Assembly (NCBI GenBank): GCA_021555105.2
Contig: CP134604.1
Location: 3,448,501-3,512,500 of the forward strand
DNA length: 64,000 bases
Source of the DNA: Thalassospiraceae bacterium LMO-JJ14
GTDB taxonomy: Bacteria; Pseudomonadota; Alphaproteobacteria; Rhodospirillales; Casp-alpha2
Direction of reading: 5' to 3'
A model generated the notes under the pieces. The model had not been told where the DNA came from and did no database searches. It saw nothing but the letters and a program-made list of their open reading frames with translations. Both the position numbers and the translations under genes were made by a program. The stretch's first letter is position 1. Each line of letters begins with the position of its first letter. Positions 12,218 through 38,578 of this stretch are shown in pieces.

Positions 12218-12365
12218 ATCGGCCGCCCTTTACGCTTATTTAACCCTGTTTTCTAATTCCACATACTTCGAATGGCCATTTTTATTAGTTTTATCAATAT
12301 GTTAAATGATCGAGAATTATTCTCATAATGTGATATGGCGCACAGCCAAACGACCGGGGAAATAC

Positions 12366-12515
12366 TATAAATGGTGTCATCAAGGTTCGGGATGGCATAT
12401 ATCCCCGGGACCACGAACAGGCAAACCGCCGGCGACGGCGGGGCGCAAAGCCACCGGCCTCAAAAACAAAAAGAAATGAGGCAGCGGAGCTACCGAAGGG
12501 AAAGGGAATTTGAAA
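12366..12515 (+). promoter_or_regulatory. Cyclic-di-GMP-I (GEMM) riboswitch and 5' leader
   Basis: The core at about 12411-12500 matches the GEMM-I consensus: GGCAAACC, a P2 hairpin (12426-12431 with 12436-12441) capped by the GNRA tetraloop GCGA (12432-12435), the conserved GGCGCAAAGCCACCGG (12442-12457), a P3 stem (12457-12462 with 12477-12482), and the conserved 3' element GCTACCG (12489-12495). A TATAAA box at 12366-12371 could serve as -10. The aptamer ends next to a purine-rich Shine-Dalgarno (AAGGGAAAGGG, 12496-12506) and no terminator is seen in the leader. This favours control of translation of the following gene. The core assignment is strong; expression platform and on/off sense are inferred. 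Confidence 0.9.
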
Positions 12516-12971
12516 ATGTGGATATCCGACATCATCTCATCGAAGCGCTGGTTCATCATAAGCCTTCTCATCACGCTCATGATCCCGGGCGCGGTCCTGG
12601 CGACACTCAGCTTTTATGCCGAGGACATGACGCAGGAAGAAGCGCTGGAGGTCGCCGCCGTCGCGGTCAAGAATTACATCGACGAGAACCCGCCCCGTCA
12701 GGGCTGGCAGGCGACCAACATCTACATCAACGAGGACATGAACCTGATGGTCGACGTTCATGTGCCCCGGTTCGATCATGCCGAAGTCATCCGCACCCGA
12801 TCGGAGCGGATTCGCTATTCGTACCTGAAACTGGCCTGTCCGCCGGCAGACGCCTGGGTTTATGAATGGCTGCACGGCCGTGACCGCATCTGGATCAACC
12901 TGCACCACCACGGCAAGTCCCTGATGCAGGCCCCGTGCCCGAGCAACAACAAGAACAGCTTCTTTTCCTGA
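12516..12971 (+). CDS. Membrane-anchored or exported protein of unknown function, riboswitch-controlled
   Basis: 151 residues from ATG 12516. An in-frame TTG at 12510 is too close to the Shine-Dalgarno. Residues about 11-31 (RWFIISLLITLMIPGAVLA) form a membrane anchor or signal peptide, leaving a soluble domain of about 120 residues outside the cytoplasm. That domain holds two cysteines that could form a disulfide (LKLACPPADAW and MQAPCPSNN), and a Trp/His-rich stretch, YEWLHGRDRIWINLHHHGKS. I do not recognise the family. It is a single gene behind a c-di-GMP riboswitch and closed by a strong terminator, so a role in surface behaviour (adhesion, motility, biofilm) is inferred. Confidence 0.8.
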   Translation: MWISDIISSKRWFIISLLITLMIPGAVLATLSFYAEDMTQEEALEVAAVAVKNYIDENPPRQGWQATNIYINEDMNLMVDVHVPRFDHAEVIRTRSERIRYSYLKLACPPADAWVYEWLHGRDRIWINLHHHGKSLMQAPCPSNNKNSFFS

Positions 12972-12998: not shown

Positions 12999-13032
12999 AA
13001 AAGGTCCGCTGAACCGTAGCGGGCCTTTTTCG
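12999..13032 (+). terminator. Intrinsic terminator of the riboswitch-controlled gene
   Basis: An 11-bp stem with one G-U pair (13000-13010 with 13018-13028), a 7-base loop, and a T-run from 13026. It lies 28 bases after the stop at 12971. Confidence 0.88.
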
Positions 13033-37294: not shown

Positions 37295-38578
37295 ATGCAC
37301 AACCGTGAGCAGATATTTCCCTCCGAACAGCCGTTCCCGCTGGGCCGGCTGTTCCGGCGCCGTTTCATCCCCGCGTTTCTCGGCTTTACCGGATTGTTTC
37401 TGGTTCTGCTGGGGATTACGGCCAGGCATGTCATCGAAGAGATTTACCTGGAACAGGCGCAACGCCGCGCCCAGACCATCGCCCGCGCCGTCGCTGACAT
37501 CGCGCCCGCGCCTTGGGCGCACCTGATGGCCGGGACGACCCTGGCCGAACTGCAGAACTCGACCGATGCGGCTGTCCTATCCAAGGCATTCACCGATGAA
37601 GTCCGCGAAATGAACCTGCCCGAGCTTAAGGTTTATGACATGGAGACACGGGTACTGTTCGCAACCAAAGCCGGTGAAATCGGCTCCACCGAACCCGCGC
37701 AGGCGCTGCGCAACACCATCGACAATTCGACATCGAGCATCGTCACCAAAAAACTGCCGGACGGGACCAGTCAGTATGAGCTGTATGTTCCGGTGTTTGA
37801 CGATAAGCACAACGTGCGTACGGTTTTCGAGCTATACGAGCCGGTGACGTACCTCAACGCCATCCTGATCAACGCCGCGATCCCGACGATGGCTGTCCCG
37901 GCGGGCCTTTTGCTGCTGTTGATCTTTGCCCTGAATGTGCTGGTCGGCCGTGCGCAACGCGATATCGATGCCCGGACATCGGCACTGAAGGCATTGCAGG
38001 ACAGGCTTTCGTCGTTCGTCTCGTCAACAGCGATCAGCGCCGCCCGCAGCGCCGGCCAGGACGGCGGCATCAAATCGCAAAAGGTCGAGACGACCCTGTT
38101 CTATTCGGATATTCGCGACTTCACAGGGTTTTCCGAACAGAATCCGGCGGAAACCGTGGTCAGCTTCCTGAACGACATCATGACCCTGCAGGTCGATGCC
38201 ATCAAAAAACACGGCGGCGATGTCGACAAGATGATCGGTGACGCCGTTCTGGCCCGCTTCGACGGCGACGACGGCGATGCCCGCGCCATTGCCGCGGCGC
38301 GTGAAATCCAGAGCGCGATCAAGGCAGGCAACTACCCGCGCAAGCTTGGTATCGGGATTCATACCGGCGAGGTTATCTCCGGTGCCATCGGCCCCGAAGA
38401 CCGCCGCGATTTCACCGTCATCGGTGATGCGGTGAATATTTCCGCGCGGCTGTGCGCGCTGGCCAAGGCCGATGAAATCGTCGTCGATGCGGATATGGCC
38501 GATGACGCTTTCAGTACGTCCGAAACCGTCCAGGTCAAGGGCCGGGTTCAAGGCATCGCCATCAGAAGACTCGGCTGA
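37295..38578 (+). CDS. Membrane class III adenylate cyclase
   Basis: 427 residues. Membrane segments at about 27-49 and 193-213 enclose a 140-residue periplasmic sensor region. The catalytic domain (about 260-425) has metal-binding aspartates in LFYSDIRDFTGFSE and GGDVDKMIGDAVLARFDG, and RRDFTVIGDAVNISARL with transition-state Asn/Arg. These are the class III cyclase residues, so it should make cAMP from ATP. No HAMP motif is obvious, though a short linker helix precedes the cyclase domain. It follows the LTA-synthase-like gene by 56 bases and precedes a DMT gene by one base. Confidence 0.9.
   Translation: MHNREQIFPSEQPFPLGRLFRRRFIPAFLGFTGLFLVLLGITARHVIEEIYLEQAQRRAQTIARAVADIAPAPWAHLMAGTTLAELQNSTDAAVLSKAFTDEVREMNLPELKVYDMETRVLFATKAGEIGSTEPAQALRNTIDNSTSSIVTKKLPDGTSQYELYVPVFDDKHNVRTVFELYEPVTYLNAILINAAIPTMAVPAGLLLLLIFALNVLVGRAQRDIDARTSALKALQDRLSSFVSSTAISAARSAGQDGGIKSQKVETTLFYSDIRDFTGFSEQNPAETVVSFLNDIMTLQVDAIKKHGGDVDKMIGDAVLARFDGDDGDARAIAAAREIQSAIKAGNYPRKLGIGIHTGEVISGAIGPEDRRDFTVIGDAVNISARLCALAKADEIVVDADMADDAFSTSETVQVKGRVQGIAIRRLG

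Follow-up and report, generated by a model that had tools for sequence, protein, structure and literature searches.

In Thalassospiraceae bacterium LMO-JJ14 an uncharacterised gene is preceded by a c-di-GMP-I riboswitch, and upstream of the riboswitch lies a CRP-type dyad at class II promoter spacing. This single-gene unit is likely to integrate two nucleotide signals, by way of its CRP-type promoter and its c-di-GMP riboswitch. In the proposed mechanism a CRP-family activator, probably the CRP-like protein encoded at genome positions 1593539-1594234, would bind the dyad at 12329-12344 and, once bound, turn on transcription from the class II promoter. The transcript, beginning at about 12378, would bear an aptamer ending at the ribosome-binding site; c-di-GMP binding would stabilise the aptamer and most likely block ribosome loading, and in the absence of ligand a 5' hairpin may, within the genus, hold the 5' strand of helix P1. 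The product is predicted to be a small membrane-anchored periplasmic protein that folds like AspS and PA3611 and perhaps assists an envelope secretin or a pilus. New here are the target family and the stacked arrangement; the riboswitch itself adds a member to a known class.

The aptamer and the gene it precedes

Comparison of the window (the whole 64,000-nucleotide stretch analysed) with all 4227 Rfam families by cmscan gave a full-length match to the c-di-GMP-I model RF01051 at 12410-12497 on the + strand (model positions 1-87 of 87; 57.2 bits, E 1.5e-8, gathering score 35), with a single tRNA as the sole other Rfam match. No second RF01051 match was found in the genome, a single contig of 3.89 Mb. 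A preliminary description had recognised a riboswitch here and named an Infernal search with RF01051 as its check; the riboswitch stands, but the extent given, 12366-12515, does not, the aptamer occupying 12410-12497 of a leader that runs from about 12378 to 12515. The conserved GEMM-I blocks it had listed are all in place: P2 (12426-12441) with its GCGA loop (12432-12435), GCAAAGCCACCGG from 12445, and CTACCG ending at 12495. With the Vc2 numbering placed along the window aptamer sequence, a correspondence that we assume, G12420, A12447 and C12493 are the predicted equivalents of G20, A47 and C92, and alignment to the consensus makes C12444/G12484 the interhelical C-G pair. In Vc2 those three bases contact c-di-GMP (PMC4744006).

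By its sequence the RNA belongs to the c-di-GMP-I class, and binding of the ligand is predicted. The G20 equivalent reportedly becomes A in variants specific for c-AMP-GMP, an observation attributed to Kellenberger and Nelson in 2015. Such rare c-di-GMP-I variants are known and fit the same covariance model (PMC7266159), but the base at 12420 is G, and it is extremely unlikely that this RNA senses c-AMP-GMP instead. The upper part of P3 is altered: its pairs are broken by three mismatches in the RF01051 alignment and replaced by an A-rich loop (12462-12477), so that the usual tetraloop receptor is absent from the window aptamer and from those of its nearest congeners; the GNRA loop of P2 is present. 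CCTAA is kept in the congeners L007 and L008 and missing in the window and in L003-L005. The missing pairs and receptor could lower ligand binding by the window aptamer. P1, which lies outside the Rfam model, could form from flanking nucleotides through two to three CC/GG pairs beside the core; it is weak in the window's genus (2-4 pairs) and does not appear in the free consensus fold of the congeneric leaders (RNAalifold). The congener L006 has changes in the base equivalent to C92 and also in the reading frame of the target, which may reflect joint decay or an assembly error. The genome has eight GGDEF matches and eight EAL matches (five of the latter above the cut-off), all of them outside 3448501-3512500, and thus the window is free of GGDEF and EAL genes, as had been noted.

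The target gene (12516-12971, + strand) encodes a 151-aa protein with an N-terminal membrane anchor, a periplasmic domain and two conserved cysteines, C108 and C141, that are invariant in 24 family sequences. Its ATG at 12516 is conserved; the mechanical listing of open reading frames begins 6 nt earlier, at a TTG. Searches of Pfam and NCBIfam with the protein found no match, in agreement with its earlier description as uncharacterised, and a profile search found no sequence match among PDB chains. A dN/dS of 0.11-0.18 between the window target and four relatives identifies it as a real protein under purifying selection. Of eight congeneric genomes seven have a homologue, as do other genera of the GTDB family, the relatives that carry names being Rhodospirillales and Rhodospirillaceae metagenome-assembled genomes. 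Among the 13 close homologues with upstream sequence (L013, which begins at a contig end, is left out), 12, from four genera, keep the riboswitch next to the gene; the exception, L015, has no aptamer even at relaxed thresholds. Since an uncharacterised family stays beside the riboswitch across four genera, the suggestion that it is a new output of c-di-GMP signalling is plausible. Homologues at greater distance, from other families, are for the most part riboswitch-less lipoproteins. The gene neighbourhood of target homologues is not conserved between genera and gives no functional hint. This, together with a strong intrinsic terminator downstream (13000-13030, + strand; hairpin of -21.9 kcal/mol, z -4.1, followed by a U run), makes the target probably a single-gene transcription unit; the terminator is absent from the + strand list of a simple terminator scan. 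One relative (L078, genome G055) carries the family domain behind a longer N-terminal part, as a fusion. A riboswitch-controlled 352-aa protein in genome G090 (L096) has, by eye, an N-terminal motif like that of the fusion; it was rejected as a family member because its C-terminus lacks the family motifs.

Structural models give some indication of what the protein may do. The AlphaFold2 model of the window protein has a pLDDT of 82, with residues of about 40-140 confidently placed (block means 88-95), and that of a lipoprotein relative a mean of 90.2. Among the matches listed by structural alignment, the top three solved neighbours of both models are PA3611, AspS and EpsS, with Z scores of 7.3, 7.2 and 6.9, respectively, for the window protein and 7.5, 8.5 and 7.9 for the lipoprotein relative; the next neighbour has a Z of 5.7. 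The best Foldseek E values for the two models, 0.028 and 0.007, are weak, both lying above 0.001. Like the AspS and EpsS pilotins and PA3611 (PDB 4ftf, 6i2v and 3npd), the target has a small periplasmic domain with two conserved cysteines, and a conserved disulfide is found in both AspS and PA3611 (C74-C111 in AspS; PMC3542185). Unlike them, the target has no profile sequence match to PDB chains and, in the window's genus, is membrane-anchored rather than lipidated: a lipobox is present in the distant homologues and was found neither in the window protein nor in its riboswitch-controlled relatives. The modelled resemblance is no more than suggestive. Given the weak Foldseek values and the lack of a lipoprotein signal, we do not file the window protein as an AspS pilotin, and that it works like one is doubtful.

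A putative CRP-type promoter paired with the riboswitch

The preliminary description took the riboswitch to be the sole visible control of the gene, and here it was mistaken, because a CRP-type site lies upstream of the aptamer. The dyad TGTGATATGGCGCACA (12329-12344, + strand), resembling TGTGA-N6-TCACA, is the one match in the window, where 0.22 were expected, and its centre falls at about -41.5 from the predicted transcription start. Exactly 21 nt past it is the -10 box TATAAA (12366-12371, + strand). CRP-type activators of class II promoters bind at just this distance from the -10 box, and the sequence upstream of the target is thus that of a putative class II CRP-family promoter. This -10 box is not in the list of a general sigma-70 scan, in which a -35 box is required. 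The transcript probably starts near 12378, as predicted from the -10 box, and on this prediction the leader spans about 12378-12515.

The arrangement recurs across the order Rhodospirillales. When 46 c-di-GMP-I leaders of the order were scored for their best dyad, 9 had one without mismatches, 36 one with at most one mismatch and 41 one with at most two; dinucleotide shuffling gave expectations of 0.01, 0.23 and 3.14, and a downstream control region gave 0, 0 and 1. A TANNNT -10 sequence stands exactly 21 nt past the dyad in 33 of the 41 dyad-bearing leaders, and at any other single offset in four leaders at most; the TATAAA of the window is one of the few that do not fit TANNNT. Upstream of 143 generic open reading frames from the same genomes only six dyads with at most one mismatch were found, four of them before riboswitch genes. 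The pairing is seen in about 17 of 19 genera, as counted by hand. It belongs mainly to this order, since in other orders of the class a dyad with at most one mismatch occurs in just 4 of 30 c-di-GMP-I leaders. The dyad also accompanies the riboswitch, for the distant riboswitch-less homologues have no close match to it; riboswitch-less L015 retains a weak dyad. A genome-wide search with the dyad plus TANANT was set aside: the pattern does not fit the TATAAA of the window, and its one other match equals the control.

With 36 of 46 leaders bearing a close dyad before differing targets, CRP-type transcriptional control and c-di-GMP translational control seem to be systematically stacked. The dyad and riboswitch might instead be linked by common descent of one duplicated leader, with no joint function, and many of the loci are indeed congeneric, so that a leader could have travelled as one piece. 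That account is improbable, because the pairing stands before unrelated targets and its spacer and flanks have diverged, the dyad, the offset and the -10 box alone being kept.

Several of the other riboswitch targets were noted along the way. For the majority of the other c-di-GMP-I riboswitches in the order, the gene that follows encodes a small conserved membrane protein of about 50-90 aa with the motif LW..W..LF..(L/I)P.GDPY.A (L024-L032, L035, L036, L038, L041, L042, L048, L084, L086, L088-L090 and L092), and in several genomes a PilZ-like reading frame, so named by eye, lies directly 3' of it. A ParA-type ATPase (ASQKGGSGKTTL...DTDPQGSL..WWN) is a recurrent target across the class (L083 and L097; at class level L117, L119, L123, L124, L126-L128, L131 and L136). 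Aptamers also stand 11-14 nt 5' of a Flp-type pilin gene (L091) and of flagellin genes (L093-L095), again named by eye, and these leaders bear CRP-type dyads too.

The genome encodes four CRP/FNR proteins above the cut-off. Only one, the protein at 1593539-1594234, is CRP-type by its recognition helix (RETVAR); the other three are FNR/FixK-like, FtrB-like and without a type. Relatives of the CRP-like protein occur in 14 of 14 genera of the family, and the RETVAR helix and a cyclic-nucleotide motif, FGEL...PRSA, are kept in nearly every readable copy. Class III nucleotide cyclase domains number eight in the genome, one of them at 38084-38500 of the window (+ strand) and another 63 bases beyond the window's end. 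The cyclic-nucleotide pocket motif and the class III cyclases make cAMP or cGMP the likely co-signal. An activator that itself senses c-di-GMP, in the manner of Clp or Bcam1349, would bring c-di-GMP to bear at both levels; CRP-family sensors of this kind are known from Xanthomonas and Burkholderia, in work cited in PMC4545359, and the specificity of the dyad for c-di-GMP riboswitches, with no close match at the distant riboswitch-less homologues, would suit it. The best candidate, however, retains a pocket motif of the cyclic-mononucleotide type (FGELSALDGQPRSA), has cAMP-CRP as its best NCBIfam match (under that model's cut-off), and is found in genera without the riboswitch as well, all of which makes a c-di-GMP-sensing activator distinctly unlikely here.

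Translational control and its direction

Translational control, as first proposed from the position of the aptamer at the ribosome-binding site, is borne out as likely. Between the end of the aptamer and the ATG at 12516 there are 18 nt; the corresponding gap is 12-19 nt in all 12 riboswitch-gene pairs, and in the other c-di-GMP-I leaders of the order it measures 10-19 nt with few exceptions. So short a gap to the start codon leaves no room for a terminator, which excludes a riboswitch acting by transcription termination and makes the control probably translational. In the window a first GGG (12498-12500, + strand), the possible 3' strand of P1, touches the aptamer and is followed by the Shine-Dalgarno-like AAAGGG (12501-12506, + strand); GAAGGGAAAGGGA is invariant in the seven congeneric leaders. 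In the distant pairs AGGAG directly adjoins the aptamer core and could form P1 with a UCCU on the 5' side of the core. In the window's genus it is GGG that adjoins the core, and the second, better-spaced AAAGGG comes after the strand that P1 would use; P1 would thus leave this Shine-Dalgarno copy uncovered.

A 5' hairpin, P0 (GGTTCGGG ... CCGGGACC; 12384-12412, + strand), was found in the RNAalifold consensus of the seven congeneric leaders and folds in the window sequence too. Three of its pairs show changes on both sides that keep the pairing, a covariation seen within the genus only, and it is on this covariation that P0 rests, the energy z-scores of single sequences being mostly not unusual; an arm-swap test discriminates for L006 and L008 only. 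The CC that could serve P1 as its 5' strand is part of the 3' arm of P0, which suggests that P0 and P1 compete for the shared strand, although shielding of the mRNA 5' end would be an equally good role for P0. Sequestration of a Shine-Dalgarno copy by a UCCC of the hairpin is seen in some congeners, is absent in L007 and L008, and was rejected as a conserved mechanism.

We infer the direction of the switch, for the competition of P0 with P1 is suggested and yet protection of the 5' end would explain the hairpin equally well. With modest confidence, c-di-GMP probably turns translation off. Switches of the c-di-GMP-I class vary in sign, and Vc1, together with Vc2 in a heterologous host, has been reported as activating (PMC4744006, PMC4545359); moreover, free folding pairs most of the Shine-Dalgarno region in some congeneric leaders, as would fit a switch in which c-di-GMP exposes the ribosome site by opening, for example, the 5' hairpin or some other structure of the free state. 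Such an ON switch is nonetheless the less likely reading, since in the distant pairs AGGAG lies right against the core, where it can pair with UCCU as P1, and since no conserved anti-Shine-Dalgarno strand was found outside the aptamer. Accessibility of the ribosome site in the free state, computed from the partition function, is uninformative on the sign.

Known systems and the regulon

Compared with Vc2 and Vc1 (GEMM-I, RF01051), the window aptamer is alike in its covariance model, P2 GNRA loop, P3, contact bases G, A and C, interhelical C-G pair and leader position. It differs in lacking a tetraloop receptor and the upper pairs of P3, in an expression platform of just 18 nt and in its new target family. 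One earlier description of a CRP site combined with a c-di-GMP-I riboswitch was found in the open-licence literature, that of Vibrio cholerae gbpA, where a CRP site lies upstream of the Vc1 riboswitch (PMC4545359) and transcription starts 244 bp upstream of the coding sequence (PMC4744006). There, as here, the CRP site is 5' of the riboswitch in one leader; gbpA, though, is one gene with a long leader, whereas the present arrangement is fixed across an order, keeps class II spacing and has only a very short platform. What is new is this order-wide, fixed pairing of CRP dyad and riboswitch before unrelated targets, together with the conserved target family.

On balance, by a narrow preference, we consider that nearly the whole c-di-GMP riboswitch regulon of the order is gated twice, with a cyclic-nucleotide-responsive CRP licensing transcription and c-di-GMP deciding translation. 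Such a regulon would span the flagellin, Flp pilin and PilZ operons, the small membrane protein, the ParA-type ATPases and the pilotin-like gene. Riboswitches for c-di-GMP are usually described one gene at a time; if the double gating holds, the fixed pairing would define a regulon that combines two second messengers on each transcript, at the levels of transcription and translation. The pairing also singles out a small set of uncharacterised envelope proteins, for which roles in surface attachment, pili or secretion may now be looked for.
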